Positions 1 through 18,373 of a stretch of DNA of 44,407 bases are shown here, piece after piece; position 1 is the first letter of the stretch, and the number at the start of each line of letters is the position of its first letter. The stretch is from Candidatus Saccharimonadota bacterium (GTDB lineage: Bacteria > Patescibacteriota > Saccharimonadia > Saccharimonadales > Saccharimonadaceae): positions 88,266 to 132,672 of the forward strand of contig JAPUEH010000001.1 in NCBI GenBank assembly GCA_027492635.1, in the 5' to 3' direction. The position numbers and the translations under genes were made by a program. The notes under the pieces were generated by a model. The model was given only the letters and a program-made list of their open reading frames with translations. It did no database searches and was not told where the DNA came from.

Positions 1-974
1 AAGGCTATGGGCAACCACAACAGCTGCCTACTGCACCAGACCAGTCTGGCTATCCCGCTATGCCTCAAGCGATGCCGGGAAGTCAGCCTGTCGATCCTAA
101 TCAGCAGGTGGCCTATGGCCAGCCACAGACCTTAGATCCTATGGCTGGGTATGGGGTAGCCCCACAGACACCTCAAGCAAACCCAACGGTCATTCCAGAC
201 GCCGCCGTACAAGCAACGGCTAAACAAGCCCCGCAGACGCCTGCTCCGCGCCCAAAAAATACCACCCAAAACAGCCTGCTATTCTCTGAAATCCGCGACA
301 ATATGCTCATTATGGCAGATGGGAGCTTTCGTGCGGTCATTGCATGCAAATCCATCAACTTCGACCTCATGAGCTCACGCGAACGCGAAGGTGTAGAATT
401 TAGTTATCAAAATTTCATCAATTCACTCACGCATCCCGTACAAATACTTATTCGCTCGCAAAAAGTTGACATTGGTCCTTATCTGGAACGCCTTATTAAA
501 ATTCGCAAAACTCAAGACAATATGCTTCTTGGTGTACTTATGGACGATTATATTGACTTCATCGAAATCCTCAGCGATGAAGCCAATATCATGGACAAGA
601 GCTTCTATGTTGTCATCCCGTATGCGCCGACTGGCGACCTCAGCAATATCAAAGATGCAGGTAAAGGATTCTTTGCCAAGCTCTTCGGGGGTGGTGGAGG
701 TCCAGCAGTGACAAAAATCGACAAAATTACCTACCAAAAAGCCAAAGATGAAATGAAAAACCGTGTCGATTCAGTATCTAGCGGACTTTTCTCGATGGGA
801 GTACACTGCAAACAACTCACCACCAAACAGCTTGGCGAGCTCTATTTTAGCTATTACAATCCCGATACGGCAATCCGCCAGCCACTTGCTAATTTTGAAG
901 AAAACACCTTTACCTACGTGCGCAAAGGCGAAGGGCAAGCCGACAGACCAAACATCACAGGAGGACTAGAGTAG
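1..974 (+). CDS. VirB4/TraC N-terminal-domain-like protein (5' partial)
   Basis: The reading frame is open from the window edge (first full codon at base 3), so the true start is probably upstream; the ATG at 60 is only the first one visible. The first 70 or so visible residues are rich in Pro, Gln and Ala and look disordered. From about base 270 the protein becomes folded (begins NSLLFSEIRDNMLIMADGSF) and resembles the N-terminal domain that precedes the ATPase in VirB4/TraC proteins. No Walker motif is present. The stop TAG overlaps the GTG start of the VirB4 ATPase gene by one base, so the two are almost certainly co-translated and probably act together at the inner face of a type IV secretion channel. 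Family assignment rests on the sequence pattern and on the neighbour; it could be a Saccharibacteria-specific accessory subunit. Confidence 0.7.
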   Translation, partial: GYGQPQQLPTAPDQSGYPAMPQAMPGSQPVDPNQQVAYGQPQTLDPMAGYGVAPQTPQANPTVIPDAAVQATAKQAPQTPAPRPKNTTQNSLLFSEIRDNMLIMADGSFRAVIACKSINFDLMSSREREGVEFSYQNFINSLTHPVQILIRSQKVDIGPYLERLIKIRKTQDNMLLGVLMDDYIDFIEILSDEANIMDKSFYVVIPYAPTGDLSNIKDAGKGFFAKLFGGGGGPAVTKIDKITYQKAKDEMKNRVDSVSSGLFSMGVHCKQLTTKQLGELYFSYYNPDTAIRQPLANFEENTFTYVRKGEGQADRPNITGGLE

Positions 975-2820: not shown

Positions 2821-5800
2821 ATGGCATCTCTAGACGACGACCTCAATCCAGCAAAGAAAAGGACTACCTGGGACGACCAAAGGGGTAGGCTTGCAACAGG
2901 TCTATCAAACCGCGAGAACCAAGCAAGTGATGAACCTAGCGGTGCCAACTCTCAGTCGGAGTCTCTTCGTAACGACGAAGATTCTGGCGCAAGTTCAACA
3001 TCTGAAGATACCGAGTCTAGCTCTCGCGGTAAACGCACCATGGCAGGTCATCTAGATGAAGACTTCTTGCCAAAAAGAAGTCGAATGACACTCAATGCTC
3101 TCAAAAAAAAGGGGCCCCTTTCCTTTATCATAGGACTTCTACTCGGCGGAGGAGGTATTTTTGCCTCGCTCCTGTCTCCTGGCGTTGCCCTTGTTCAGAT
3201 TAAAGAAGCATTGATGGACGACATGAACGATGCACTTGCAGCCATGGATTACCGTATGCAGCATATCGTACGCGCAAAAATGAAAAACACCACTTCTGGT
3301 TTTTGCAGCCGCAAGGTGTCTATACGCTGCAACTATCGCAGTATGTCCAAAAAGCAAATAGAAAAGCTTCGCAAGGCAGGAATCCACGTCCAGACAAAAG
3401 GTCGCACCCTTAGTGGAAAGTATAAAATTGACTACCTGGCAGAGATGAAGCCCGATGGCAGTAGACCCGGACCAAACGACAGAATTACCGCCAATAAATT
3501 TGGCAAAGCTTATAATACCAACCCGTCATTTCGTGGCAAACTCCACCAAACATGGGCGCCGCGATGGATGTCCGTCAACGACAAGATGGGTAAAAGTTTT
3601 TCAAAAAAGTTTGGACTTAAGCGGCATCGACTTCTTAATGGAAAGTCCGAAAGCGAAATAAAGAAGCAGTACAACAAAGGCGTCAAGGAGGGTCTTGCGG
3701 AGGATAGTAGCAAGCGAGGACTTCGGCGTTCTCCTGACGGCGAAGGCAACAACGGTAGACTTGTAGACGGCAACAATCAAGAAGTGCGCACAAATGGTCA
3801 ACCCGTCCAAGCAGATAACTTTGAGGCAGAACTAGAGAGAACAAGAGCTCGCTCTGGAGGCAAACTGAAAGGCGGCCTCATGAAAGGTCTTAGAGCAGCA
3901 AATGGTGTCACAGGAACCCAAGCGGAAGCATGCCAGCTTATACGCAAATTACGAATGTTAGGAATGATATCCCGCAATCTTAAGTTTGCTCAGGCATTGC
4001 GATCATTTTATATCGTAGCCAATACAGCCGACTCAATCAAAGACGGATCCGCTACACCCGAAGCCGTATCCGCCCTCATGGCTATGATTACAGAGGTCGA
4101 CACGAGAAAGATGATAGAGCCAGATGATGATGCGCTAACTGGAGCATTTGAAACCATGTTCGGCTCAGCAAGTGGACCGCCAGCCGCAGATAAACTCGTC
4201 GAAAATCCCGATTTTGGTAAGGATGGTTTTTCGTCGCCTGGCATGAAAGCCTCTCTTTACGGTGCGGTTCCAAGCAGCCTATCCACACGAGACTCGGCGG
4301 CATCACTAAACGGCAATATGGGGACACGCCTTAGTAATCTATCGACAAAACTAGCAAACTTCACCGATACGGGTAATTGCGACCTCTACGAAAATCCAGT
4401 CGTAGCAGGAGCAGGGATTATAGCGAGCGTCGCCGCAGGAGTTGGCACAGCAGGTGGATCAGCTGTCGCACAAGGTGTAAAAGCCGCAGCTATGCTAGTC
4501 CTTAGTATGGTGGTCGAGCAGTTTATAGATTCAATGCTAGCGCGCCTATCCGACGGCGACCTGTTTGACTATGACAATGCCAGAGGTTATGACTCTGGTA
4601 ATGTCTGGGCAGCTGGGGCTGGGGCGCTAGGAAGCGTCGCAAGCAGCAGCCACGGCATGTCACCCGTATCTACTCATGCAGAAATTGAAAGTTATCAAAA
4701 AGTGAGCGCAGAGGTCAAGCAGCAAAACATAGAGATTGATCGTATAGCTGCAGCCCAGACACCTTTTGACATATATAACCAGTATTCATTCCTTGGATCG
4801 ATCGTATGGAGTATCAATCCCATCCTCCTCGACTCCACAAAAAATGTAGCCACAGCCCTTAGTGTCCCATCAGGTATTTTTGGCACAGCCTTGCAGTGGC
4901 TCAATCCTACCGTAGACGCAGCCACACCATCTCCTATCGAGCGCTACAAAAAAAACGACTCCAATGAAATCATGAAAGAAATGAATCTCAAAGGCTCCGA
5001 CCTCTTTGGTAACTATCGATTTGCAATGGGCGACGACGAGCTTCATGCCGACCCAGATCAAATCGCCTCATGGATGGCAGATGCACGCCAGGTAGATGCC
5101 GAAACAGGAGAGCCCCTCACGACCTGCAGTGCCATCAACGACGCCGCCAGCCAGACGGGGAAACCTGCATCCGAGCTGCTAGGCATGAACCCTGCCGACA
5201 CATCAGTAATCGCCAAGATGCGCTACACAGATGAAGTAGCTAAGCCAGATACAGCCATCAGTCTCGGTGAGGATAATGCACCTATCGAAGCAGAGACAGC
5301 TAGTGCAACAATACCGACAAGAGAGGATGTTGATATAAAGAGCGAGATAGCAACCTACCCTTGGCAAGGTTTAGACCCGCAATCAAACGACCCTAAGCAT
5401 TGCGACGAAGCACTCACGCGTGACGTTCGCACTTATGCCCACTTCCTCCGCTATTGCCGCTTCGGCCCCTCTCGCGAAGAGGGTGAGCTTGGCCGCACAA
5501 TCAACTTTGGTGATGGTGATGGCGGCGATTATCAGGGCACTGCACTGTCTGGCCTCACCACTACAGCCAAATGGCAATCTACAGGAAAAGAATGTCTTAA
5601 ATCTAATACTTGTCAAGCCGGACAGGTTCCTAATGGTCGGCAAGGAGTTACTCATCCATTTGGAAATAGCGAGCAATACAATGACTTCTGTCGCCCCGCC
5701 TACTACGACATCTATGCTACCTACACAATGGATTACGCAATAGATCAAGGTCTTGAGCAAGACGATGAAGAGGGTGAAGGCGCAGCCGAAAAAGAGGCAG

Positions 5801-6285
5801 AATCATCAGGTAAATACGACTGGCCAATGAAGGGAGAGGGTACGGTAATTACCAGTTGCTTCGCAGCCCGCTGGGGGACATTCCATGCCGCCCTCGATAT
5901 CGCAGCAGGTGGCGAACCGGAGATTGTAGCAGCAGATGGCGGAGAAGTTTCAGCAGTGAGCCACAATGAGGCACCTTTTTCCGGGTTTGGAGAGACAGTC
6001 GTCATAAAACATAGTGACGGCATGTATACTCGCTACTCACATATGAAAGAAGGGTCGATTGCCGTATCAAAGGGGGATAAAGTAAGCAAGGGAGATAAAA
6101 TTGGCATACAAGGTAATACTGGTGCAAGCCAGGGTGCCCACCTCGACTTCGGTATGAGTAAAGACGCATCAGTTCCGAACACCCAGTCTGGTTCAGAAAA
6201 CCCCATGAACTACCTTACTGTGCCATCTGGTGTAAATAATCAGGCAAACTGCACCAAAGACGGAGGGAGTACGGTATCGACATGA
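2821..6285 (+). CDS. Large VirB6-like membrane protein with C-terminal M23 peptidase domain (cassette A)
   Basis: An 1154-residue protein. Residues 1-95 are charged and hydrophilic. A strong membrane segment lies at about 98-125 (FIIGLLLGGGGIFASLL), followed by a long basic region and further Gly/Ala-rich hydrophobic segments at about 525-580, 595-612 and 655-700. This layout resembles a VirB6/TrbL-type channel component, an inference supported by the VirB4 gene 17 bases upstream. The C-terminal 145 residues form an M23 (LytM/lysostaphin-like) domain with H1022xxxD1026, H1074 and H1107, but the second His of the final HxH motif is Asp (HLD, D1109), so zinc binding may be altered. It is a clear paralogue of the 12192 gene: both share a TTSG motif after the first membrane segment and the pattern EIDxIAAxxxPFDxxNQxSFxGS. 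The TGA stop overlaps the next ATG (ATGA). Confidence 0.8.
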   Translation: MASLDDDLNPAKKRTTWDDQRGRLATGLSNRENQASDEPSGANSQSESLRNDEDSGASSTSEDTESSSRGKRTMAGHLDEDFLPKRSRMTLNALKKKGPLSFIIGLLLGGGGIFASLLSPGVALVQIKEALMDDMNDALAAMDYRMQHIVRAKMKNTTSGFCSRKVSIRCNYRSMSKKQIEKLRKAGIHVQTKGRTLSGKYKIDYLAEMKPDGSRPGPNDRITANKFGKAYNTNPSFRGKLHQTWAPRWMSVNDKMGKSFSKKFGLKRHRLLNGKSESEIKKQYNKGVKEGLAEDSSKRGLRRSPDGEGNNGRLVDGNNQEVRTNGQPVQADNFEAELERTRARSGGKLKGGLMKGLRAANGVTGTQAEACQLIRKLRMLGMISRNLKFAQALRSFYIVANTADSIKDGSATPEAVSALMAMITEVDTRKMIEPDDDALTGAFETMFGSASGPPAADKLVENPDFGKDGFSSPGMKASLYGAVPSSLSTRDSAASLNGNMGTRLSNLSTKLANFTDTGNCDLYENPVVAGAGIIASVAAGVGTAGGSAVAQGVKAAAMLVLSMVVEQFIDSMLARLSDGDLFDYDNARGYDSGNVWAAGAGALGSVASSSHGMSPVSTHAEIESYQKVSAEVKQQNIEIDRIAAAQTPFDIYNQYSFLGSIVWSINPILLDSTKNVATALSVPSGIFGTALQWLNPTVDAATPSPIERYKKNDSNEIMKEMNLKGSDLFGNYRFAMGDDELHADPDQIASWMADARQVDAETGEPLTTCSAINDAASQTGKPASELLGMNPADTSVIAKMRYTDEVAKPDTAISLGEDNAPIEAETASATIPTREDVDIKSEIATYPWQGLDPQSNDPKHCDEALTRDVRTYAHFLRYCRFGPSREEGELGRTINFGDGDGGDYQGTALSGLTTTAKWQSTGKECLKSNTCQAGQVPNGRQGVTHPFGNSEQYNDFCRPAYYDIYATYTMDYAIDQGLEQDDEEGEGAAEKEAESSGKYDWPMKGEGTVITSCFAARWGTFHAALDIAAGGEPEIVAADGGEVSAVSHNEAPFSGFGETVVIKHSDGMYTRYSHMKEGSIAVSKGDKVSKGDKIGIQGNTGASQGAHLDFGMSKDASVPNTQSGSENPMNYLTVPSGVNNQANCTKDGGSTVST

Positions 6286-9119
6286 CACACTCTAGATCAC
6301 TTACAGCTAAGATTCATAGGACATTTACGGTTCTTATTCTCGCAATATTCACGTCCATGAATATTGTCGTTTACCTCCCTATGTCAGTGTTTGGCGCGAC
6401 AGAAGGCGCACCACTTAGCCCGCAGGGTGCCGGTATTGGCAGTGGACCTTTTCAACGACTAAACCAGTCAGAGTTTTTCAATGCCTGCGGAGGAGGGGAC
6501 GGGGGATCGACTACACCAACGGCTAGTGGCGATCTTGGTAATGTCTACATGCTAGGAGATTCTATTACACTTGGAGCTCAGCAGAGTGGTATTGAAGATA
6601 AATTTAAAGAAGCGGGCGCAAAAGAAGTTACAATTAGCGCATCTGGTGGTGGCAACCTAGGTAGTCCCGGCACGACCGGTACTCGAAAATCTGGCTATGA
6701 TGCTATTGAAAGTGATAAATCCACTATCAAAGCAGCAAATACCATCATCGTTGCACATGGAACAAACCAGATGGAAAACAACGTTGGCAGTCCATCCGAC
6801 AGTAACGCTTATGTATCAAATTCTCAAGAATCCATCAAAGAAGCAATCAAGAAGATTAAAGCTACCGGCACATCTGGAAAAATCTATTGGGTAGACGTTG
6901 CTATATCTGCAGCTGGTCCAGGAATATACCCTTCATTTGTACATCTTATCGACAAAGCAATTTATGCAAGCGCATCAGAGGAAGGCTATACTACAATCTC
7001 GTGGGCAAAAAAAGTTGATTCCAGCTACGACCCAGCCAATGCCACTGGTCCGGTAAATGACTCGCAAAATTACCTTGCAGATGGCATTCATCCAAGCTCT
7101 GCAGGATACCCAGTATATATGGATACCGTTGTAAATGGCGCAAAGTCTGGAGGAGGGAATGGAAGTGAAGACAACCAGACAACTGGAACCAGTAATGAAG
7201 ATGACACTAACAGCAATAAGGGTTCAGGAGGCAGCCTCCAGCAAATTGCCGATGATGCCGTGCGAGAAGGTGAAGGCAAGAATATTAATGTCGCTATTAA
7301 GATTAGTGGAGATCAATCCGCCTCTGCTGGAGAGCAAGGACAGATGCCGTCGGCCTCGGTGATTAAACTACTAGTAGCCGCAGCCTTATCCAAAAAGAAT
7401 GTACCTCTGGCTAGCGTAAGTAACGACTTAGAATTAATGATTCGTGACTCAAACAATGAAGCTGCAAATAGACTAATAGATAGAGCTGGTGGGGTTGGTG
7501 ATATTAATAATGTAGCGAGCGAATTAGGCATAGGAAGTGATGCGCATATAGGACGCAAAATGCTTGAAAGTGTTGGTGGCGCCGATCCAAATACCATTTC
7601 CTCAAAAGGTTCCGATTCGCTATTAGGAGAATTTAAAAAATCATCAGAAGGAAGTGGACAGATTAGTCAAGACTACGCTAATGCGGTTATTGATGCCATG
7701 AAAGCTCAAACAGTAGCAACAAAGTGGGGTAGCTCTGGCATACCAAAAGAGAACATGGCACACAAGACAGGCGAGCTTAACGGTGCTCAGCATGACGTAG
7801 GGTTTTTTATAAAAGGAGATAAGTGGCTCACAGTAACTACAATGACAAATGAGCCTGGAGGCGACGGATCGCAAGGTGTTGAGCTTGTAAAAACTACCGC
7901 AAAAAAAATATATGATGCGTGGGGAGGGGATTCAGAAACGACAGCTGAAGACGACGGATGCTGTGCAAGCGGTGACAGTAGCGGTACTTCTGGCGGTGGC
8001 GCAGGAGATCCGCTACCGGAATCAGTTCCAGAGCCATGGCGAACCCTTATTAATGATGCTGCCGAAAAGCACCCCGACTCCGATCGTCGCATCGTAGCTG
8101 CTACGCTATGGGCAGAAAACCGAGGCTGGCCAGAATATAAAGAGGGAAGCTCGACAACCTCAGGGGTTGGCGCTGTTGGATTCTGGCAATTTATGCCTCA
8201 ATCTTGGGCAGCAATGGGAGAGGATGGCGATGGCGATGGCGTTAAAGACCCTAAAAACCCTAAAGACGCAGTACATGGCGCCTTCAATCATAGCCCAGAC
8301 TCGGCGGGTAAGCCTATTATTTATGAAGGAACTGGCGACCTAGAGGGTGATTACGAAACAAAAAAATTCTATAGAAATGATGAAGCAAAAAAAAGCTTAC
8401 TCACCTACATGGCTAACTATAACGGAAATGACGGGAGTGCTATCGAGGGATCTACATTACCAAACTTCCAGAGAGCTCAGAATGGAGATTATGTACGCAT
8501 GGGCTACTGGCTCATGGCTAGTAATTTCGAAAAAGGATGGATGCCGGAGGCGGACGAATTAGTAGATGCATCAGCTCAAGGACCAGGTGCAAAAGGTGGT
8601 AGTGCAAGTACACTAACAAGTAGCAATACAAGCGGCAAAAATTGTGCAAAAAAAAGTGACTCCGCCTTTGGCGAAGGAATCGTAGCCGCAGCAAAAGAGA
8701 TGGCAACCTGGGGTGAAAAATATAATTCTTGTTATGTATATGGCTCAGGCCATGGATCCCGAGAGGACCTGGAAAAACGAATTGACAATCACTTTAGTGG
8801 ATCGGAAAACGCAGTTGACTGCTCTGCTTTTGTAACAGCTGTAATACTCAAGGGTACAGGGGAATATGTACCAGGCAATACAAATAGCTTCTGTGATGGA
8901 GGGGAGTTTGAAAAGATACCCATAGCTCAGGCGCAACCTGGTGACCTTTCGATAGACTGTAATGCTCACGTAGAGGTAATAACAGAAGTGAAAGGACCTA
9001 GTGACTTCATCACCTCCGGTTCACATATGGACGGGTGTGGCCCTGATCACGGAGCAAGCCCTGGAACATACAAAGGAACTGAAAGTTTTGTACTAAGATT
9101 TAAAGGGGCTAAGAAATAA
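6282..9119 (+). CDS. Secreted multi-domain cell-wall hydrolase: SGNH, beta-lactamase-like, transglycosylase-like and NlpC/P60-like domains
   Basis: A 945-residue protein with an N-terminal signal or anchor helix (about 14-38). Four domains follow. (1) SGNH/GDSL hydrolase at about 85-285: GDS with S94, a GTN block, and D267GIH270; such domains often deacetylate glycans. (2) Class A beta-lactamase/DD-peptidase-like domain at about 310-540: S359VIK362, SNN at 390-392, K495TG. (3) Lysozyme-like transglycosylase domain at about 575-765: catalytic Glu candidate E612, GFWQFMPQSW, and an MltB-like calcium motif (DGDGDGVKD). (4) NlpC/P60 or CHAP-like cysteine peptidase at about 805-945: C847 in DCSAF, H896. 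Low-complexity Gly/Ser/Thr linkers join them. The start overlaps the upstream gene by 4 bases and the stop overlaps the next ATG by one (TAATG). All predicted activities act on peptidoglycan; whether the target is its own wall or a host wall is inference. Confidence 0.82.
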   Translation: MTHSRSLTAKIHRTFTVLILAIFTSMNIVVYLPMSVFGATEGAPLSPQGAGIGSGPFQRLNQSEFFNACGGGDGGSTTPTASGDLGNVYMLGDSITLGAQQSGIEDKFKEAGAKEVTISASGGGNLGSPGTTGTRKSGYDAIESDKSTIKAANTIIVAHGTNQMENNVGSPSDSNAYVSNSQESIKEAIKKIKATGTSGKIYWVDVAISAAGPGIYPSFVHLIDKAIYASASEEGYTTISWAKKVDSSYDPANATGPVNDSQNYLADGIHPSSAGYPVYMDTVVNGAKSGGGNGSEDNQTTGTSNEDDTNSNKGSGGSLQQIADDAVREGEGKNINVAIKISGDQSASAGEQGQMPSASVIKLLVAAALSKKNVPLASVSNDLELMIRDSNNEAANRLIDRAGGVGDINNVASELGIGSDAHIGRKMLESVGGADPNTISSKGSDSLLGEFKKSSEGSGQISQDYANAVIDAMKAQTVATKWGSSGIPKENMAHKTGELNGAQHDVGFFIKGDKWLTVTTMTNEPGGDGSQGVELVKTTAKKIYDAWGGDSETTAEDDGCCASGDSSGTSGGGAGDPLPESVPEPWRTLINDAAEKHPDSDRRIVAATLWAENRGWPEYKEGSSTTSGVGAVGFWQFMPQSWAAMGEDGDGDGVKDPKNPKDAVHGAFNHSPDSAGKPIIYEGTGDLEGDYETKKFYRNDEAKKSLLTYMANYNGNDGSAIEGSTLPNFQRAQNGDYVRMGYWLMASNFEKGWMPEADELVDASAQGPGAKGGSASTLTSSNTSGKNCAKKSDSAFGEGIVAAAKEMATWGEKYNSCYVYGSGHGSREDLEKRIDNHFSGSENAVDCSAFVTAVILKGTGEYVPGNTNSFCDGGEFEKIPIAQAQPGDLSIDCNAHVEVITEVKGPSDFITSGSHMDGCGPDHGASPGTYKGTESFVLRFKGAKK

Positions 9120-9511
9120 TGATAGACATTAAATACTGGTTGCAAACACACCTCAAACTATCCTTTATACTAGTAGCCTGTCTTTTAGCAATTCCAGCTG
9201 TAGTAATTGTCATTAATAAGCAATCAGATAAGGCAAGCTCCAAATATGTCTTAAGCAAGAAGCTAAATCGTACCGACTTTAACGTAACAAATACCCTTGT
9301 AGATAGCCAGGGCTGGAAGCTTGTAAGAATTGTATCCACTCGTAGTGTAGACAAAGGTAATGCTGCATATGCTATATTTTATAGTGAAGCCAATCAGATG
9401 GTATTGAAGCTAGGACCGGGTACATATTTCTCTAAACAAAGCCTTGCGAAAACAGGCATGCCAGAAGATGTTCAAGAAGAGATGTTAAAAAAACTTGGTC
9501 AAAGGCAATAA
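9119..9511 (+). CDS. Small single-pass membrane protein of cassette A
   Basis: A 130-residue protein with one N-terminal membrane helix (about 13-33, SFILVACLLAIPAVVIVI) and an external soluble domain of about 95 residues. No recognised domain. Its ATG overlaps the TAA of the hydrolase gene by one base, so translation is probably coupled. The C-terminal half (ending in PEDVQEEMLKKLGQRQ) weakly resembles in layout the C-terminal half of the 210-residue protein that ends cassette B, suggesting a shared small domain, but the similarity is too low to be certain by eye. Its position suggests an accessory or anchoring subunit of the secretion or hydrolase complex. Confidence 0.7.
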   Translation: MIDIKYWLQTHLKLSFILVACLLAIPAVVIVINKQSDKASSKYVLSKKLNRTDFNVTNTLVDSQGWKLVRIVSTRSVDKGNAAYAIFYSEANQMVLKLGPGTYFSKQSLAKTGMPEDVQEEMLKKLGQRQ

Positions 9512-9514
9512 TCT

Positions 9515-11107
9515 ATGAATCAAATACCTCAAGAGCTACAGAAACGAATTGTCAAATACAGTATACTAATCGCTATAGTTGCAATATTTTTAATATATTT
9601 CATATTCAACTACGCTTTTATTTATGTACATGTGACAAAGCCAGAAGGAGTGTCAAACGCAAAAGTATACCTCAGTTACGATCTAAATTACAATGAAATA
9701 GGTAAGCCTGGATTACATGTCGTAAAAAGGGGTGCGGATGGTATTATGGTCAAATCTGGGCAAAACATACGCACAGTCGCAAAATTTCAATCACCTTGGT
9801 ATGGATTTACCTACAGAGAGATTCACCTGCAAAGGGATAAAAATGCAGATAAAATAGCCTTTAAGTCAGTGCTCAAACGAGCATGTGGTACATATAGCAA
9901 AAAACTTGATAGACTAGCGCACTACAGCTGCTCAAGCAACCCACAGGCACTTATGTACTACAATACCCCTACGAAGGGTCAGTGGCTCACGGAAACGATT
10001 TCCAGTCTCTATTACCCAAGTAATATCCCTGTCAGTTATATGGGGGGACTAATAGGGGTGTCGAGTGATGAAAAATCATACTTACCAAATAATGAGCTGA
10101 TACGCGTCGTTTCCGATACAGGCGAGACTCGAGTATTTAAATGGCCGACAGAGGACTCTGCGATTGACGAAAAGGAGGATCAAAATCTACCCGCATTTGA
10201 GCGATTAAAACAAAAACGCGAAAGGGATAGGAGTAGGGTTCTCGCTAAAATATTTACAGACACAAAGAACCAAAATAATAATAGGTTCGTGCTAGTATCC
10301 TCCCGTGGCGATATCTATCTAGCAACACCACATTCAGATTCCATAAACTACAAAAAAGTCAATGCCCCAGACTGGTATGACACAAGTAATTCACAAACAA
10401 TTTGTGATATAAATGGCGCAGCTGTTGTCTGCTACAGAGGTCTATCCGATAGTCCAAAAGGTGAGTTGAGCTCAAAGCCAACACAATCGGGAATTACAGA
10501 GTTGAGTTTTAATGACAATTCCCAAAAAGAAATAAAGTTGGAAAACAATCTTATCCTACAAGATTTCGGCGTAACATCGAGTGGGTATATATTCGGCAGA
10601 AACACAGGTAAACTATTTTATTTCAGTAAAGGCTCGGACAGTAAACTACATACAATAGAGATATCCAACAAAATAGACACTCTCAATATCGGTGATAAAG
10701 CCTACTTCATACAAGACAAGGGTGTCTTTGTAGTTGACCCAAAAACACTCTCATCTCATCAAATATTCTACTCAACTAATATCATACCGGAGAGGCTCAC
10801 TGTAGCAGATAGTCATGTGTTCATTATTGGTAAGTCAGCTCAGAGACAAAAAGGCTACACTTACGCGTGGAGGATAAATCAACATGATCATATTGGAGAC
10901 AAGTCAAGGCCAATAGACATGCTACCGTCCTTCCTTGAATCATCAACCTATGGAACGGTAGATTTAGTGGAGGATAGTTTATATGTACAGCCACCCGTCT
11001 ATAGCATTAATAACCCTGAAGATCTTGCACGCCGCCAAAAGGTAACCTTGGAATATCTCCGCAAGTCAGGAATTGACACGACTAAGTTCAATATCGTTAC
11101 GCCATAA
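9515..11107 (+). CDS. Membrane-anchored extracellular protein, possible PEGA-like and beta-propeller regions
   Basis: A 530-residue protein with an N-terminal membrane helix at about 15-37 and a large external part. Residues about 38-115 look like an extracytoplasmic beta-sandwich (PEGA-like). The remainder is rich in beta-strand-like segments with repeated aromatic and Gly positions and could be a divergent propeller; no named family can be assigned. The extreme C-terminus (RRQKVTLEYLRKSGIDTTKF) matches in spacing the C-terminal region of the 17101 gene product (RQVAIDLLRKKG then T-D-F), which supports homology between the anchored proteins of the two cassettes. It starts 3 bases after the preceding stop and ends the + strand unit before a hairpin terminator at 11174. 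Confidence 0.72.
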   Translation: MNQIPQELQKRIVKYSILIAIVAIFLIYFIFNYAFIYVHVTKPEGVSNAKVYLSYDLNYNEIGKPGLHVVKRGADGIMVKSGQNIRTVAKFQSPWYGFTYREIHLQRDKNADKIAFKSVLKRACGTYSKKLDRLAHYSCSSNPQALMYYNTPTKGQWLTETISSLYYPSNIPVSYMGGLIGVSSDEKSYLPNNELIRVVSDTGETRVFKWPTEDSAIDEKEDQNLPAFERLKQKRERDRSRVLAKIFTDTKNQNNNRFVLVSSRGDIYLATPHSDSINYKKVNAPDWYDTSNSQTICDINGAAVVCYRGLSDSPKGELSSKPTQSGITELSFNDNSQKEIKLENNLILQDFGVTSSGYIFGRNTGKLFYFSKGSDSKLHTIEISNKIDTLNIGDKAYFIQDKGVFVVDPKTLSSHQIFYSTNIIPERLTVADSHVFIIGKSAQRQKGYTYAWRINQHDHIGDKSRPIDMLPSFLESSTYGTVDLVEDSLYVQPPVYSINNPEDLARRQKVTLEYLRKSGIDTTKFNIVTP

Positions 11108-11173
11108 GAAATCACCCTAAATAAGAGAGTACGGATATTAAAAAGCTTACCTTTGGCTACTAAAATTGAAATT

Positions 11174-11205
11174 GAAAAGTGTCATACTATAGCATGACAC
11201 TTTTC
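11174..11205. terminator. Bidirectional hairpin terminator between convergent genes
   Basis: A perfect 12-bp inverted repeat (GAAAAGTGTCAT at 11174-11185 with ATGACACTTTTC at 11194-11205) with an 8-base loop. The arms carry A-runs on one side and T-runs on the other, so it could terminate transcription in both directions. It lies between the + strand gene ending at 11107 and the - strand gene ending at 11225. Confidence 0.75.
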
Positions 11206-11224
11206 AGTTTAGTGATTATCGTAA

Positions 11225-12019
11225 CTAGCTAGAGTATCCATCCGACGAATAAGCACAGACATGTTGGTCGCTGTCTAGTGCACCATCGTTATCATTCCCA
11301 TCCCAGCTCAAATCACCTCCATACTTTACAAGAGTAAAGTCGGCCATATCGAACTGCGAATGATACATATCTTGTTGCACTTCCCCGGGCATTGGGGCTC
11401 CGTCATCATCAGCTTTTCGCCTATCTAATATAGCTTGAACACTTGCAACAGTCTCATCTAATTTTACGCCTTCTAGATATAGCGGAGTTCGACCGTCTCC
11501 ATCGGTAAGTTTCGCGCTAGCACCCGGTTGGGCAAGCGCCTCACGAAGTCTACCCTGGATATACTGCTCCCCAGAGACGCCCAGCCCACCGAAATTGTAA
11601 GGTGTCTCAAGGCTACGGCATGCCTCACCAAACACCACATTACCAGCTTGCGCATCACCCGCACCGGGTACGCTCTCGTGGTTACTTTTATTGACAGATA
11701 CTACACCGGTAGAACACGCAGCAATCCCTGCCCCCAGTACACCTATCGCCGCCAGAGGAGCAACGATAAATTTCGCAAGCTTATGGCTCTTTTCCTTACG
11801 TGGCCCTTGGGGTACAGTATTATGATTATAATTTTGTGGGTATTGGGGGTTGACAGGGGGCTGCTGCCCGTAGTAATATGATTGCTGTGCCTGCGGAGGA
11901 TACCCTGCAAAGTTACCTCCTATACCGCCTTGTGTAGTCATGGCATTCGGAGCCATATATTGTTGTACATTTGGTGCGCCAAACGCATCGTTTGGCTGAA
12001 AATCTCCATATCTCTTCAT
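11225..12019 (-). CDS. Hypothetical membrane protein with Pro/Gln/Tyr-rich cytoplasmic tail
   Basis: A 264-residue protein. Residues 1-72 are of low complexity, rich in Gln, Pro, Tyr and Asn. After a basic patch (RKEKSHK) comes one membrane segment at about 82-102, ending in IAAC, which looks like a lipobox with C102; the long N-terminal extension makes classical lipoprotein processing doubtful. The external 160 residues include Cys residues and an acidic C-terminus with SWDGNDNDGALDSD, possibly metal-binding. No known family. It is the only leftward gene in the secretion locus and separates the two paralogous cassettes. A TATGAT element at 12031-12036 (- strand) lies 11 bases before the ATG. 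Confidence 0.65.
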   Translation of the reverse strand: MKRYGDFQPNDAFGAPNVQQYMAPNAMTTQGGIGGNFAGYPPQAQQSYYYGQQPPVNPQYPQNYNHNTVPQGPRKEKSHKLAKFIVAPLAAIGVLGAGIAACSTGVVSVNKSNHESVPGAGDAQAGNVVFGEACRSLETPYNFGGLGVSGEQYIQGRLREALAQPGASAKLTDGDGRTPLYLEGVKLDETVASVQAILDRRKADDDGAPMPGEVQQDMYHSQFDMADFTLVKYGGDLSWDGNDNDGALDSDQHVCAYSSDGYSS

Positions 12020-12040
12020 GGCTAATATATATCATATTTT

Positions 12041-12065
12041 ACTACAAAAATCAATACTTTGTAGT
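12041..12065. repeat. 8-bp inverted repeat in a divergent promoter region
   Basis: ACTACAAA (12041-12048) and TTTGTAGT (12058-12065) are separated by 9 bases, in the 172-bp gap between the leftward gene starting at 12019 and the rightward cassette B. It could be an operator for one or both promoters. Eight-base dyads are not rare in AT-rich DNA, so this is weak. Confidence 0.35.
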
Positions 12066-12113
12066 ATTTTTTACGTTGTCTTACATCTTATTTTTGCCCT
12101 ATATCTATATATA

Positions 12114-12142
12114 TTGCGTAATATGTAAACATAGAGTATACT
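12114..12142 (+). promoter_or_regulatory. Candidate sigma70-type promoter for cassette B
   Basis: TTGCGT at 12114-12119, a 17-base spacer and TATACT at 12137-12142. Initiation would fall near 12149, giving a leader of about 43 bases before the ATG at 12192. GGGAG at about 12176-12180 is a possible ribosome-binding element. Confidence 0.5.
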
Positions 12143-12191
12143 AGACACCGTACTACTCGACTAATCTCACTGGGAGTGTGACGCGTATATA

Positions 12192-15125
12192 ATGGCCACC
12201 GAGCTGCAAGATAGACCTACTGGTAAATCATCGCGCTATGACGATGATTATTTTCGGCATATAGAGCAATCTCCCTCGCGTGAATCTACCGACGAAGAAG
12301 CGGCCATAGAACGGGCGCGCAAGCTGGCACGACCAGCGCATAATCCCGTGTCTAGTTCATCAAAACCAAAGGCGCGCGCGCAGAAGATTATTGCAAACTT
12401 TCGAGGCAACCGCTCAAAATCACCAATCCTACTGATAATTATCCTACTTTTTGGAGGCGGTAGTATTTTCACGGCTATATTGGCACCGGGCGCAACATTA
12501 CTAAGCCTCGCCGACACACTAGAGCGAGACCTCAATAGCCAACTTTCTGCTATGGACAAAACATCTATGCAGGTGTGGCGCACCAAGCTCAAACAAACCA
12601 CTTCTGGCTCCTGCGGCGCAGTAAAGATCAAGTGTAAATTTGCCACAGTCAACAAAACCAAATTCGACAAAGCCGTCCAGCGCGCCAATGCCGCAGGCCC
12701 CGACAAATTCAAGATTAGCTATGATGACAGCAAAGGTTTTGGAGAAAACAGGGCACGCATCAAGGAAATCACGTGGACAAGCGAGGCAGGCGAGGTGCAT
12801 CGTATCAAAGGTGGTGATGAATTTACCAAAATGATGAAAGAAAATCCCAGCTTCCGCGCCAAGATGTTTCTCGTACACAATCCACGCTTCTCACCGTTTA
12901 AAGGCAAGCCTGTCATGGAGTTTCTTGCCAAAAACAAAACAAGCTATGCAAAAAAACTAAAAGGCAAAAACGAAAAAGAAGTTCGCGCCAGCAAAACGCA
13001 AGCTATAAAAGGTGAGTCAACCATAGAAGTGAAAAAGCTCACACCTGTCACAGATGAAGATGGCAACCAAACAGGGGAGTATGAGGATGACAAAGGTAAT
13101 AAGTACAGCGCAGACGAAGCCAAAGGGCTAATCGAGCAAGAAGAGCGTATCAAGAAAATACCTTCAACCCAAAAAATCCTTGGAGGTATGGCCAAAGGCG
13201 TGTTGATCACCGGCCTTGCAGACACAGCCTGCACTGTCTACAACACCTCGCGCGCAGTGAGTGTGGGTGCCAAGACGCTTCGCTCGGCAGAACTCATCCG
13301 TACAAGTATGGTATACACCAACGAAGCCCATGCTATCCGCGCAGAAATGGCTACTCCAGAAACGGTGCAGGTGGCTTCTAATGACATTATGTATATGGAA
13401 CCGCGCTCAAAAGTTGCCGACGAGAATCAACTCGCCACAACCCCAGCGGGGCAAAAACTCCCAGAAATAGATAATCCCAATGGCGGCAAGACTGGTATGG
13501 ATTCGCCAATTTACAAGATATCCAGCAGCCAAGATTATCCCAAAAACCTAAGTGCCAGCACACAGACACTTATGCCAGGTGGTGGACTCACTGGCACACT
13601 CGATAGTGTTAATCTATCTATAGCCAATGCGTTGGGTGCAAGCGACCCGGCGACAATCTCTCAGCGCTGCAAGGTAATCCAAAACCCTATCGTGCGCGGC
13701 GGCTCGCTCATTATCGGTATCGCAGCCGGGCTTGGTAGTTTCGGGACCAGTACGGCCTTTTCTATGGCCGGCAGTATGGCGCTTGCATTGGCATTGCCAT
13801 ACCTTACCGCGCAGCTAGCCGATATGATAGCAGGCAATGTCACAGACAATCTCAAGGGTATGGATCTCGTGAGCGCCGTATCGATTGGCTCTGCGCTGAC
13901 CTACAACGGCATGGCACGCAGTCAAGGTATGATGACGATGAGTCCTGAAGATATGGCGGATTATCAAAATGGCAAACGTCAAGCACTCGTTGCTTACGAT
14001 GAGATTGATCAAATTGCCGCGCGCAAAAATCCCTTTGATGTCACCAATCAATTCTCTTTTGCTGGCAGCCTCATACGCAGCAGCCTGCCTGTCGCCGCAA
14101 CAATTCGTAGCAGCGGAGCAGGAGTACTACAGGCATTGCCGCAAATTGCATCGCTCGCCGCCAGTGCCATAGTACCATCAGCAAATGCCGCCGATACACG
14201 CCGCACACTTGTGAGGCCAGAACGATACACAATGTGCAACGACCAAGACTACAAGGCGCTGGGAGAAAATGTAGCGGTTGACGTGACATGTACGATGAAC
14301 TTCGGCCTGCCGAAAGAAGCGATGAATTTAGAAGTAGACGACGCCGTGGATTATATGGTCGCAAACGACGAGATCGACGCAGCAGACGAATCTGGCGCGC
14401 CAAAAGAAAACGAGCGCAGCTGGAACTATGCAAAATACGTCGAGCAATGCGTAAAAAACCAGCCCGGTGCCACCGAAGACGCCGAAGCAGAGCCTACTAA
14501 TGGCGCGGGATGCACCTCAAAGGCAAACTACGAAAAAAACTGGCACTATGCCAAATTTGAAGTGATCAAAAACAGCAGCGACTATATCGACCAAGAACTG
14601 CCTGGTATGGACGGCGGCTCACGCGAGGAATTTGATGATGGCTCAAAAAGCAGCATCGGCATGGACGGCTGGGCGTATCCGACCGACAAAAACAAGACAA
14701 CAATATCAAGCGGCTTTGGCCCACGTGATGGCGCGCAGCACAACGGTACCGACCTCGCAGGACCGCTTGGCACGCCTATTTATGCCGCAAGAGATGGCGA
14801 AGTGATTGCCGCGGGACCAGCGGACGGCTTCGGCAACTGGATTGTCCTTCAACACGACGCCAATGGCAAGCGCGTCGACACCGTCTATGGCCATATGCAG
14901 CGCAGCGGCGTGCTCGTGCGCGTAGGGCAAAAAGTTAAAGCTGGCGAGATGATTGGACGGATTGGCAATGAGGGCCAGAGCACCGGACCGCACCTTCATT
15001 TTGAAGTCTGGGATGGCGGCCGCAGCGATATGCCCGGCGGCGACGCGGGCAAAGCAGTCGATCCCGCGCCTTTTCTCGAAAAAGCGTCGAGTGGCGATAG
15101 CAGTAGTAATGCGAGGAATATATAG
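12192..15125 (+). CDS. Large VirB6-like membrane protein with C-terminal M23 peptidase domain (cassette B)
   Basis: A 977-residue paralogue of the 2821 gene. A charged N-terminus (1-75) is followed by a membrane segment at about 80-102 (ILLIIILLFGGGSIFTAIL), a soluble Lys-rich part, and Gly/Ala-rich hydrophobic segments at about 500-545, 558-580 and 620-665. The C-terminal M23 domain is complete: H850xxxD854, H901 in YGHMQ, and H934-L-H936-F-E, the expected zinc and catalytic residues of LytM-type endopeptidases. Cutting of peptide cross-bridges in peptidoglycan is therefore plausible. The family resemblance to channel proteins of type IV secretion is inferred from the membrane layout and from the VirB4 gene at 974. 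It precedes its hydrolase partner by 2 bases. Wobble positions appear richer in C and G than in cassette A. Confidence 0.82.
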   Translation: MATELQDRPTGKSSRYDDDYFRHIEQSPSRESTDEEAAIERARKLARPAHNPVSSSSKPKARAQKIIANFRGNRSKSPILLIIILLFGGGSIFTAILAPGATLLSLADTLERDLNSQLSAMDKTSMQVWRTKLKQTTSGSCGAVKIKCKFATVNKTKFDKAVQRANAAGPDKFKISYDDSKGFGENRARIKEITWTSEAGEVHRIKGGDEFTKMMKENPSFRAKMFLVHNPRFSPFKGKPVMEFLAKNKTSYAKKLKGKNEKEVRASKTQAIKGESTIEVKKLTPVTDEDGNQTGEYEDDKGNKYSADEAKGLIEQEERIKKIPSTQKILGGMAKGVLITGLADTACTVYNTSRAVSVGAKTLRSAELIRTSMVYTNEAHAIRAEMATPETVQVASNDIMYMEPRSKVADENQLATTPAGQKLPEIDNPNGGKTGMDSPIYKISSSQDYPKNLSASTQTLMPGGGLTGTLDSVNLSIANALGASDPATISQRCKVIQNPIVRGGSLIIGIAAGLGSFGTSTAFSMAGSMALALALPYLTAQLADMIAGNVTDNLKGMDLVSAVSIGSALTYNGMARSQGMMTMSPEDMADYQNGKRQALVAYDEIDQIAARKNPFDVTNQFSFAGSLIRSSLPVAATIRSSGAGVLQALPQIASLAASAIVPSANAADTRRTLVRPERYTMCNDQDYKALGENVAVDVTCTMNFGLPKEAMNLEVDDAVDYMVANDEIDAADESGAPKENERSWNYAKYVEQCVKNQPGATEDAEAEPTNGAGCTSKANYEKNWHYAKFEVIKNSSDYIDQELPGMDGGSREEFDDGSKSSIGMDGWAYPTDKNKTTISSGFGPRDGAQHNGTDLAGPLGTPIYAARDGEVIAAGPADGFGNWIVLQHDANGKRVDTVYGHMQRSGVLVRVGQKVKAGEMIGRIGNEGQSTGPHLHFEVWDGGRSDMPGGDAGKAVDPAPFLEKASSGDSSSNARNI

Positions 15126-15127
15126 AC

Positions 15128-17101
15128 ATGAAAAAGCTTCGTTTCATCTCACTAGCATTTGCCGCCATTTTACTTGTACAAGAGATGATCTTTCCTGTAG
15201 ATGTCATGGCTATATCTGACCCAAATAGATTTATGCGTCAAGACGCCTGGGGAATTGACGATGAATGCGAAACACCAGACACTGGCGAAGTTGATGGTTT
15301 GCTCGACAAAGTTTATATACTTGGTGATTCCATCACGCTCGGCGCAAAAAGCATCTACGAATCAAAATTCAAAGAAGCAGGCGCAAGTGAGGTAAAAGTA
15401 GTTGCGTCTGGAGGTGGTAATCTTGGCTCGCCAGGAACAGCAGGGGATATCATCTCTGGCTACGACGCGCTCGCTAGAGACAAAGATTATATCAAGCAGG
15501 CGAGTACCATCATCATTGCGCACGGCACCAATCAAATGGAAAATAACAATGCCAATGGCGGCTATGACGACGGCTACGTGACAAGAGCAAGCGACTCAAT
15601 CTCAAAAGCCGTAAAACTCGTCAAAGACAGCGGTACAAACGGAAAATTATATTGGGTAGACGTCGCAATTACCGATGCCGCTAGTAGCAATTATGCAATA
15701 TTTTCACCCCTTATCGACAAAGCAATTTATGCAAGCGCCTCGCAAGGTTATGATGTGTTATCGTGGGCAAAAATAGTAGATCCTAGCTACACGCCAGATA
15801 GCGCACGCGCACCCCCAAAGCAAAATAGCGCGCTTATGCAGCCAGACGGCATTCATCCAAATACAGCGGGTGCAACCAAACTTGTCGATATGGTGACAAA
15901 AAACACATCAGGTGGTACTACAGAAGATAACACTTCCGCCGAAACAGTGAGTAGCGACTCAGCCTCAAACACGACCTGCTGCGCTGATCCAAACGCAGCC
16001 CGCGTCGCGCTCGCTGGCAACAACAATGTCGAAAAAATCCTCAACTTCTACATGAGAAAAGGCCTGAGCCTCGCTCAGGCGAGTGGTATCGTGGGTAATA
16101 TGATGCAAGAGTCTGGCCTCAAGCCAAATATCGTACAAGGCGGCCGCCTGATTGCTCCAGGTGAAGACTATAAAATGCAGAATGGCGTCGGATTTGGGCT
16201 TGTGCAATGGACATTTACAGAACGCCAAAAACCGCTTCAGGACCACATCAACAAAATGGGCGTCAAAAACACAGACCTGAGCGGACAGCTTAGCTTTACA
16301 TGGGTTGAGCTCACCGGCCCCTACCTCTCAACGCTCAACAACCTCAAGCGCGCCAAAGACCCCGTTGAAGCAGCCGTCGTGGTACACGATGGCTACGAAA
16401 AATCAAACGACAGTGCAGGCGAAGTACGGAGTGTTCGAGGTGGCAATGCCAAAAAAGTCTACGACAAATACAAAAATGCACCAGCGCTCGCTGGCAGCAC
16501 GGCGGGTAGTGCGATGAATAATCCATCGGGCGAAGAGAAGGTCAATGAACATGGGCAAGCCGAGATAGATACTGTCGCGAGCGTCGATGAGGATGGCGAG
16601 GCGACTGGTTGTAGTAGCAGTGCCGCAGGTGGTGACTTCAATAGCACTCTCAAAGCTTACGCGTGGCCAGAGTTTAAAGGGCTCGATATCAAACCAACCA
16701 AGGCGTATGGCGACGCTGTTCGTAAATCCATGGGGCAGGGTCTTTATGTCGGCGGTATCTCTCACAAAGGTATAGACTGTGGAGGTTTTGTAACACTTCT
16801 TGTGCGTGATAGTGGTTATGAAAAAGGATACAACTACAATGGCAAAGGTGGCTACACTGGCATTCAGGAGAAATGGATGAAAGAAAACTGGCAATCACTC
16901 GGCTCTAGCTCAAGTATTAGCGCTGGCAAGCTGCAGCCAGGTGATGTAGCGATAAACTCTACTCATACCTTTATTTATGTAGGTGATGTACCTGGATTCA
17001 AAGCAAAAATAGCTTCCGCATCACTTGATGAACGAGCACCGATGGCCGACAATCAACAAAGTCCCACTCAACCAGGCTATAATTGGTATAGGAAAAAATA
17101 A
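15128..17101 (+). CDS. Secreted multi-domain cell-wall hydrolase: SGNH, phage-lysozyme-like and NlpC/P60-like domains
   Basis: A 657-residue protein with an N-terminal signal or anchor helix at about 5-25. An SGNH hydrolase domain at about 55-260 carries GDS (S68), a GTN block and D240GIH243, and is closely similar to the SGNH domain of the 6282 product. A phage-tail-lysozyme-like domain at about 300-450 (MRKGLSLAQASGIVGNMMQE) has E328 as the likely catalytic acid. A C-terminal NlpC/P60-like domain at about 510-657 has C551 in GIDCGGF and H613. Compared with its cassette A counterpart, the beta-lactamase-like domain is absent and a different lysozyme fold replaces the transglycosylase. It begins 2 bases after the upstream stop and overlaps the next gene by one base (TAATG). 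Confidence 0.82.
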   Translation: MKKLRFISLAFAAILLVQEMIFPVDVMAISDPNRFMRQDAWGIDDECETPDTGEVDGLLDKVYILGDSITLGAKSIYESKFKEAGASEVKVVASGGGNLGSPGTAGDIISGYDALARDKDYIKQASTIIIAHGTNQMENNNANGGYDDGYVTRASDSISKAVKLVKDSGTNGKLYWVDVAITDAASSNYAIFSPLIDKAIYASASQGYDVLSWAKIVDPSYTPDSARAPPKQNSALMQPDGIHPNTAGATKLVDMVTKNTSGGTTEDNTSAETVSSDSASNTTCCADPNAARVALAGNNNVEKILNFYMRKGLSLAQASGIVGNMMQESGLKPNIVQGGRLIAPGEDYKMQNGVGFGLVQWTFTERQKPLQDHINKMGVKNTDLSGQLSFTWVELTGPYLSTLNNLKRAKDPVEAAVVVHDGYEKSNDSAGEVRSVRGGNAKKVYDKYKNAPALAGSTAGSAMNNPSGEEKVNEHGQAEIDTVASVDEDGEATGCSSSAAGGDFNSTLKAYAWPEFKGLDIKPTKAYGDAVRKSMGQGLYVGGISHKGIDCGGFVTLLVRDSGYEKGYNYNGKGGYTGIQEKWMKENWQSLGSSSSISAGKLQPGDVAINSTHTFIYVGDVPGFKAKIASASLDERAPMADNQQSPTQPGYNWYRKK

Positions 17102-17760
17102 TGCAATATGAGCCAGCATACTATATCGGTAAGTATCGCAGACACATTTTGGTGTCACTTATAGTATGCGTCGCGGCTATTGCCACTCTAACGATATACA
17201 CGCAATGGAAAAACGCCGCTCAGCGAGCTGGCAAGCTAGCCGTACCTGTCGAAGTGGTGCCTCGCGACGCAACTGTGAAAATTGGTGAGCAGGCTATTAC
17301 AAGTCGTGGTACGGCATGGATCGCACCCGGCGAGCATACAGCTACCGTATCACGCGACGGTTTTGAATCTCAGACGCGAACACTACGCGTCTCTGCTGAT
17401 GCCGAGCCGTATCTCTATATTGCACTCGTAGGCGAAACAAACGATGCGAAAAAGTGGCAAGATTCACACCAATCAGACTACCAGCGTATCGAGCTACTCA
17501 CCGTCCAAAAAGCGCGCGACTACAACACACGATTCAAATCCAACAATCCAATCGTCAATATCCTACCAATCAAAGATCCCTACTATTCTATCGACTACCG
17601 CAATTACGACGACAAGACCATTGAGCTCATTATCGACGGCACATCACCGCGATATCGACAAGTGGCGATAGACCTACTGCGAAAAAAGGGGTACGAACCA
17701 ACGGATTTTCGCGTAACCTACGACAACTTTACAAATCCGCTTGGAGAAAAAAATGAATAA
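17101..17760 (+). CDS. Single-pass membrane protein with PEGA-like domain
   Basis: A 219-residue protein with an N-terminal membrane helix (about 15-35) and a beta-rich domain at about 45-110 whose pattern (VPRDATVKIGEQ, then a turn, then HTATVSRDGFESQTRTL) is typical of PEGA domains, small extracytoplasmic beta-sandwiches linked to surface structures. A second mixed domain follows and ends in a segment (RQVAIDLLRKKG) shared with the C-terminus of the 9515 product. ATG at 17101 overlaps the preceding TAA by one base. Probably an accessory surface subunit of the cassette B complex. Confidence 0.72.
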   Translation: MQYEPAYYIGKYRRHILVSLIVCVAAIATLTIYTQWKNAAQRAGKLAVPVEVVPRDATVKIGEQAITSRGTAWIAPGEHTATVSRDGFESQTRTLRVSADAEPYLYIALVGETNDAKKWQDSHQSDYQRIELLTVQKARDYNTRFKSNNPIVNILPIKDPYYSIDYRNYDDKTIELIIDGTSPRYRQVAIDLLRKKGYEPTDFRVTYDNFTNPLGEKNE

Positions 17761-18373
17761 ATTATTTAGAAATACCTCCGTACAGATAGCATTGGTACTC
17801 AGTATCATGGCAGCACTTATCTATGGTGTCTGGGTATATATACTCTCTTTTCAGACAGTCACATTTAAATTTGACGACACGCTTGGGTATGTCGAAATAC
17901 AGGGGAGCGACACAAAAAAACTGTATCCAAAAAACAATCAGGCTGTACGACTAAAAAAAGGTGAGTATACACTGCAAAATATCGGCCAAAATATCACCAA
18001 AAATACTCGCAAACTCACCCTGGATGAGAGCGTGAATAGTATCAATATATCGTTTAGCTACACCAGAGAGCATCTTGCCAACCTCTATGCATCCGAAGCC
18101 GATACAATCCGTGCAAGCCTTCTCGATGCCTACCCCAAGATTACAGAGCTCTATGAGATCAAGCACGATAAGCTTTATCGCAAGGGTGACATTTTTGGCG
18201 CATCGCTCGTTGCAAAAAATCAAAATGACGACAATGCCGACACACTCAAGGTACTCATGAAGAAACAAAAAGGCTCATGGATTGTAGCATCAAAGCCTCC
18301 TGCGCCACTCCTAAGCGCACCGCTATATCCCGATGTTGATATTGAAATTTTGCGTGCTATCAACAAACAATAA
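17753..18373 (+). CDS. Single-pass membrane protein ending cassette B
   Basis: The start is set at the ATG at 17753 (MNKLFRNTSV), 6 bases after a GGAG at 17743-17746; an in-frame TTG at 17741 is possible but overlaps that site. The 206-residue product has a membrane helix at about 10-32, a PEGA-like beta domain (about 35-100) and a C-terminal domain of about 90 residues with the ending PDVDIEILRAINKQ, which may be related to the 130-residue protein of cassette A. It overlaps the upstream gene by 8 bases. It converges with recF, leaving only 6 bases between the stops. No named family. Confidence 0.68.
   Translation: MNKLFRNTSVQIALVLSIMAALIYGVWVYILSFQTVTFKFDDTLGYVEIQGSDTKKLYPKNNQAVRLKKGEYTLQNIGQNITKNTRKLTLDESVNSINISFSYTREHLANLYASEADTIRASLLDAYPKITELYEIKHDKLYRKGDIFGASLVAKNQNDDNADTLKVLMKKQKGSWIVASKPPAPLLSAPLYPDVDIEILRAINKQ

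Follow-up and report, generated by a model that had tools for sequence, protein, structure and literature searches.

A window of 44,407 nucleotides (the whole stretch of DNA analysed, C1:88266-132672, contig JAPUEH010000001.1) from a Candidatus Saccharimonadota bacterium contains two gene modules, A and B, which directly follow a virB4 gene. Each is composed of a large core protein (A1, B1) with a C-terminal M23 domain, a multi-enzyme protein (A2, B2) and two further small or anchored proteins (A3 and A4, B3 and B4). Comparison of related loci indicates that the core, a putative anchor, is conserved across the lineage and that the enzymes on it are swapped between species. This pattern suggests that the modules serve to open cell walls where secretion takes place. 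With moderate confidence, each module is interpreted as a split, modular wall-opening counterpart of VirB1/PrgK in a type IV secretion system (T4SS) of the MPF_FATA class, doubled in this lineage.

The linkage of the modules to virB4 was assessed in 80 Saccharibacteria loci, 74 of them testable (at least 1 kb downstream); they were fetched by VirB4 alone, and the set is therefore not biased towards the cassette. The core was the next same-strand gene after virB4 in 54 of the 74 loci, within 130 bp in 53 of these. A first-pass annotation of this DNA had named, as the outcome that would speak against its reading, membrane proteins lacking a structural match to any secretion channel subunit together with cassettes lying apart from virB4 in most relatives; by fold, M23 was the only part matched, and in these loci the core mostly adjoins virB4. 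Of 148 family genomes, 133 gave a match to the core profile. In a sample of the phylum it was detected in 14 of 15 family genomes and in three of seven genomes that belong to the order but not to the family, whereas no genome of another class contained it. As a separate observation, loci L101, L104, L111, L114, L117, L119, L123 and L132, from a mostly gut-associated lineage, keep VirB6-PrgI-TrsD-VirB4 with no recognisable module downstream.

The enzymatic content of the modules differs between loci. Among 52 proteins encoded in the second slot, the Pfam domains were Phage_lysozyme2 (38), CHAP (9), NlpC (8), C39 (7), GDSL (7), Glucosaminidase (5) and SLT (4), together with M15/VanY, M23, Amidase_3, GH43, beta-lactamase and others, almost all of them wall enzymes; GH3 was found in two further slot-2 proteins. 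The core tails (n = 54) carried M23 (14), VanY (6), Exo_endo_phos (4), CHAP (2) or Amidase_2 (1), the rest having no recognised domain. One core tail (L082:11955-16577) combines an endonuclease/exonuclease/phosphatase domain with M23. Within the genus, identity was 94-95% for VirB4, 49-54% for B1 and 24-36% for A1, and the domain set of A2 differed in each of the four same-genus genomes. VirB6-like proteins also diverge fast (PMC7739484), and rapid change is thus common to the outer parts of the machine.

A1 and B1 are full-length paralogs (27% identity over 704 amino acids, E 3.7e-50 by BLASTP; M23 against M23, 8e-13). The motif EIDxIAAxxxPFDxxNQxSF, already pointed out as common to both in the first-pass annotation, lies within a stretch conserved in the whole family. 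Both M23 motifs (HxxxD and HxH) are intact in B1, whereas A1 lacks one metal ligand, with HLD replacing HxH, and its M23 domain is for this reason probably impaired. Family-averaged hydropathy predicts one strong N-terminal transmembrane (TM) helix and one conserved hydrophobic stretch (residues 505-539 of B1), and the eight conserved cysteines of the core are all C-terminal to the TM helix, so that the core suits an anchored outer protein. An AlphaFold (AF2) model of B1 was obtained with a predicted local distance difference test (pLDDT) score of 77 and a predicted TM-score (pTM) of 0.74. Its M23 domain has the LytM fold (DipM, Z 20.1; PrgK LytM, Z 12.0). In fold searches of this model with Foldseek and VIA-align only M23 was matched, with no outstanding row for the core and no evidence of a new fold.

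The assignment of A1 and B1 as VirB6-like was rejected. Comparison of a profile of 101 VirB6-like proteins with one of 85 core proteins gave a probability of 1.1%, and neither set hit the other at E<10; TrbL matched six places in the genome, none of them at A1 or B1; and one strong TM helix plus one hydrophobic stretch falls short of the at least five helices taken to define a polytopic VirB6/TrbL protein. The true VirB6/TrbL-like proteins are encoded by five genes upstream of the window and are unrelated to the core by profiles. From the overall interpretation of the first-pass annotation, a specialised machine for passing through a host wall in an episymbiont, the VirB6 label for these giant membrane proteins is thus lost, and the VirB4 linkage, the episymbiont setting and the specialised wall-active role are retained. 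A third core copy, carrying no enzyme, is located elsewhere in the genome (L035:5699-12918, C7), where it follows genes for a TrbL-like protein and a ClpC-like AAA protein, and core copies beside a VirB6-like gene recur in L052, L043 and L053. Since the third copy carries no enzyme, the core would have a role beyond carrying hydrolases.

Nine wall-active domains are encoded across A1, A2, B1 and B2 when the sub-threshold NlpC/P60 matches are counted, in line with the minimum of seven proposed earlier. The class A beta-lactamase-like domain of A2 shows SxxK, SxN and KTG and, as read from its sequence, no evident deacylation Glu. Between A2 and B2, the SGNH domains share 54% identity, compared with 27% for A1 and B1 and about 30% for the nearest SGNH domain elsewhere, and the B2 proteins of relatives lack this domain. 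Being far closer than the rest of the modules and absent from relatives' B2, the SGNH pair is the product of a later domain copy within the locus and gives no support to cassette duplication, for which it had been cited as evidence. The copy is not very recent, as DNA identity is 66% over 434 bases.

Regarding the smaller proteins, B3 and B4 have in common a TM helix and a PEGA-like domain (profile comparison, E 8e-41). In L096, L100, L102, L106, L116, L126 and L128 the two form a single fusion protein of about 300 amino acids, and the model of the fused form (pLDDT 93) comprises a TM helix, a transthyretin-like PEGA domain (Z ~6), an alpha-beta domain and a C-terminal NTF2/cystatin-like domain. 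The B4 type is considered a weak candidate, from modelling, for VirB8, a subunit reported missing (PMC12102498). Against the TcpC-type NTF2-like conjugation protein 3ub1 the same domain scored Z 4.5, a level also reached by unrelated NTF2 folds, and a PDB sequence search with the B3/B4 profile returned nothing significant. The first-pass annotation had paired the anchored proteins of the two modules by their LRKxG and T-x-F endings. As the match covers 12 columns at E 0.28, this ending is rejected as a sign of shared ancestry, and no support was found for A3 or A4 as divergent B3/B4: A3 is without homologs in the set, and A4 belongs to a family distinct from B3/B4 that holds the same place in other loci. 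The four-gene order, reported earlier as occurring twice, nevertheless represents a real unit, since cassette A of the same-genus locus L039 carries B3-like (1e-30) and B4-like (3e-26) genes.

Most relatives have a single module. Tandem modules were found in all four genomes of the same genus and in genera g32, g58 and g47, and two core copies stand close together in a few further loci. In the core tree, with A and B copies defined by gene position, the B copies formed one clade (support 100), as did the third, VirB6-linked copies, and the A copies fell in several places. The approximately unbiased (AU) test, which followed the first FastTree, rejected a single A clade (p 5e-52) and A+B (3.5e-7). 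As the A copies do not form one clade, a simple recent tandem duplication is rejected for them; what stands of the duplication proposed in the first-pass annotation is the full-length paralogy of A1 and B1 and the four-gene unit. The tree is consistent either with repeated replacement of the A copies or with uneven retention of old copies.

According to the interpretation favoured here, the core would be anchored by its single N-terminal TM helix, and its outer, cysteine-rich part, probably disulfide-bonded, would bear the swappable C-terminal enzyme. A2 and B2, N-terminally anchored or secreted, would cut glycan strands and stem peptides and probably remove acyl groups. The bitopic B3 and B4, and probably A3 and A4, would act as envelope scaffolds, possibly replacing VirB8. 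Together, these parts would open the peptidoglycan where the secretion channel assembles, that of the producer's own wall and probably that of the host at the contact site, the two modules representing two complementary enzyme sets.

Several observations weigh against this interpretation. No recognised core stands right after virB4 in 20 of the 74 loci; six of these have at that place an unrecognised large gene of about 750-1500 amino acids (three with M23), four have hydrolase or B3-type genes without the core, and one has the core 4.9 kb away. About nine of the 20, mostly from gut lineages, have no recognisable module after virB4. The enzyme-free third core copy, the lack of a match for the core outside M23 in the fold searches of the B1 model, and the distribution of the domains, on one chain in PrgK and on two here, point in the same direction. 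The similarity of the NTF2/cystatin-like domain to TraM is weak (Z 4.7, root-mean-square deviation 4.0 over 69), level with unrelated NTF2/cystatin folds. Channel binding and activity of the module proteins are themselves predictions.

Action on the host wall is proposed on account of the lifestyle and the diversity of the enzymes, and is plausible; own-wall remodelling is a serious rival. In its strict form, the rival holds that the enzymes serve the producer's wall only, as an ordinary VirB1, letting the apparatus pass the producer's peptidoglycan, and that swapping follows changes in the producer's wall. VirB1/PrgK proteins have this as their established role (PMC12857230), the anchored topology would hold the enzymes near the producer, and own-wall action also explains much of the data. 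Neither the within-genus divergence of A1 and the A2 domain sets beside a nearly constant VirB4, nor the range of predicted bond types (acyl ester, D-Ala, glycan and stem peptide, plus GH43 and GH3), which exceeds what one small wall would be expected to need, is decisive against it. The strict form is possible but on the whole doubtful. A more far-reaching idea, considered unlikely, is that the core would be an envelope-spanning chassis whose exchangeable lytic tips match the host wall, its hydrophobic stretch entering the host membrane, so that the T4SS would be a phage-tail-like conduit into another bacterium and the host could be changed by tip swap.

The same domains match phage endolysin and tape-measure families, and the layout with a swappable C-terminal enzyme recalls polymorphic effectors; A2, B2 and the core tails could thus be effectors or endolysin-like weapons exported by the T4SS or Sec towards the host, with the core as a delivery scaffold and not a channel part. 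However, the proteins have N-terminal TM or signal segments in place of a known T4SS signal, and their genes sit inside the apparatus locus, which renders this quite unlikely. That the modules are wall-growth or division genes placed near dnaA by chance and unrelated to secretion is highly improbable: recF, dnaN and dnaA do follow directly, but the distance to virB4 is at most 130 bp in 53 loci and core copies accompany VirB6-like genes at other loci too.

In plasmid pCF10 the genes are arranged as prgH-I-J-K-L, the same order as in this locus. The modules further resemble the PrgK/VirB1-like proteins (pCF10 PrgK, pIP501 TraG) in the position directly after VirB4, the membrane anchor, the combination of M23, SLT or lysozyme and NlpC/P60-like domains, spread here over two genes per module, and a degenerate LytM-type domain, here that of A1. 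They differ in being split into a core and a separate multi-enzyme protein with swapped domains, in the two tandem modules, in the added SGNH and beta-lactamase-like domains and in the large Cys-rich core, which within the sample searched was confined to this taxonomic order. pCF10 PrgK has LytM, muramidase and CHAP domains, its LytM being described as more regulatory (PMC12857230), so the earlier premise of a single small transglycosylase as the norm in T4SSs does not hold for monoderm systems.

In S. epibionticum the T4SS cluster is among the essential genes (PMC10633639), including the peptidase and lysozyme genes that lie just after virB4 (PMC12102498). M23 and lysozyme genes beside saccharibacterial virB4 are already published (PMC7739484, PMC12102498), an M23 gene in a VirB4/VirB6 operon having been reported in 2020. 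The S. epibionticum ML1/TM7x locus shares VirB4, the TrsD-like protein, PrgI, VirB6, the pilin array and the peptidase and lysozyme genes after virB4 (PMC10633639, PMC12102498, PMC7739484), and the present locus differs from it by the two modules, found in this genus, the five VirB6 paralogs and the lineage-wide pattern of swapped payloads. In phages, endolysins and tape-measure proteins that contain M23 or Phage_lysozyme2 have the same enzyme domains, freely recombined, endolysin modularity being named in the title of PMC13284279, whereas the modules described here are chromosomal and VirB4-linked. The core itself showed no homology to phage proteins. The T4SS of Rickettsiales has extended VirB6 arrays (rvhB6a-e), comparable to the tandem enlarged VirB6 paralogs upstream of the window although of another T4SS class, and we know of no wall-enzyme modules of this kind in that system.

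A chassis with swapped payload and a doubled module were not found in the open-licence literature searched; the conserved chassis, the payload swapping, the doubled module and the weak VirB8-like candidate are new here. The interpretation bears on how host-dependent Patescibacteria, whose T4SS is essential, breach the envelope of the bacterial host. If the interpretation is true, the set of payload domains should follow the wall chemistry of the host, and removal of a payload domain in a cultured Saccharibacterium should alter growth in co-culture. The VirB8-like candidate bears on the subunit reported missing.

The genome has a size of 1.01 Mb, is 96% complete and has Saccharibacteria as its nearest named relatives. 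The genes and order given in the first-pass annotation were confirmed: on the plus strand, TrsD-like, VirB4, A1-A4 and, beyond a minus-strand orphan, B1-B4, then convergent recF, dnaN and dnaA. VirB4, of the CD1110 family, ends 17 bp before A1, directly upstream of the cassettes as had been stated. The features are listed in Table 1.

Table 1. Features of the virB4-linked region (positions in the window).
Feature	Position	Strand	Basis
TrsD-like protein, N-terminal half of VirB4	60..974	+	NCBIfam TrsD 2.6e-5, VirB4_plasma 1.5e-5
VirB4 ATPase, CD1110 family	974..2803	+	NF045971 1.7e-111, 373.8 bits (cut-off 325)
A1, module A core, M23 at the C-terminus	2821..6285	+	Core profile 1e-165; M23 1.2e-20
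Core region of A1	2833..5811	+	Iterated core profile
M23 domain of A1, HLD for HxH	5881..6168	+	Pfam PF01551, motifs
A2: SGNH, class A beta-lactamase-like, SLT/MltB-like, NlpC/P60-like	6282..9119	+	Pfam; motifs GDSI/GTN/DGIHP, SVIK/SNN/KTG, ENR, DCSAF
SGNH domain of A2	6528..7202	+	54% identity to B2 SGNH
Best Pfam stretch of the class A beta-lactamase-like (DD-peptidase-like) domain in A2	7413..7817	+	PF13354 1.5e-17
Lytic-transglycosylase-like domain of A2	8061..8285	+	PF13406 4e-8, PF01464 2.6e-4
NlpC/P60-like domain of A2, sub-threshold	8802..8948	+	PF00877 0.011, Cys motif DCSAF
A3, small single-TM protein	9119..9511	+	No detectable relatives in set
A4, anchored, 530 amino acids, own family of 10 members	9515..11107	+	Also in one-cassette loci
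Terminator-like palindrome forming a stem of 15 pairs, between A4 and minus-strand gene	11173..11206	.	
Orphan gene between modules, 264 amino acids, one TM	11225..12019	-	No relatives found
B1, module B core, M23 intact	12192..15125	+	M23 7.3e-30
Core region of B1: TM at residues 79-97, eight conserved Cys, hydrophobic stretch at 505-539	12240..14603	+	
M23 domain of B1, HNGTD and HLHF intact	14736..15023	+	Motifs, LytM fold
B2: SGNH, phage-tail lysozyme, NlpC/P60-like	15128..17101	+	Phage_lysozyme2 1.5e-30, NlpC 4.2e-4, DUF459 8.8e-4
SGNH domain of B2	15296..15958	+	Lacking in relatives' B2
Phage_lysozyme2 domain of B2	16025..16471	+	
NlpC/P60-like domain of B2, sub-threshold	16748..17008	+	PF00877 4.2e-4, DCGGF motif
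B3: TM, PEGA-like and own C-terminal domain	17101..17760	+	PEGA 0.012, CarboxypepD_reg 0.0022
B4: TM, PEGA-like and small NTF2/cystatin-like domain	17741..18373	+	Homology to fused relative L116, AF2 pLDDT 93

Upstream of the window are located, in this order, a T4SS pilin array, five tandem TrbL/VirB6-like genes and PrgI. The pilin array (C1:65808-72970) adjoins the VirB6 genes and gives about ten PF18895 matches, nine over the cut-off and one below. The five large VirB6/TrbL-like paralogs (L004, C1:74000-88400, and L037:17039-19000) are mutually homologous and singly below the Pfam cut-off, one TrbL-like gene at C7 being over it. PrgI/VirB3 is present (PF12666 4.5e-14, 53.2 bits against a cut-off of 27). 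Two VirD4/TraG-like candidates for the coupling protein, with TraG-D_C over the cut-off, lie outside the window (C4:10185 and C9:8572), unlinked to the T4SS locus. By its gene content, the whole is assigned to the monoderm (MPF_FATA) type IV secretion loci next to dnaA. Such loci have been described in Patescibacteria (PMC12102498), and the essential T4SS of S. epibionticum is a further published case (PMC10633639); a relaxase is reported to be usually absent in Patescibacteria (PMC12102498). For the minus-strand orphan gene between the modules no relatives or family were found, and a different small minus-strand gene takes its place in L038.

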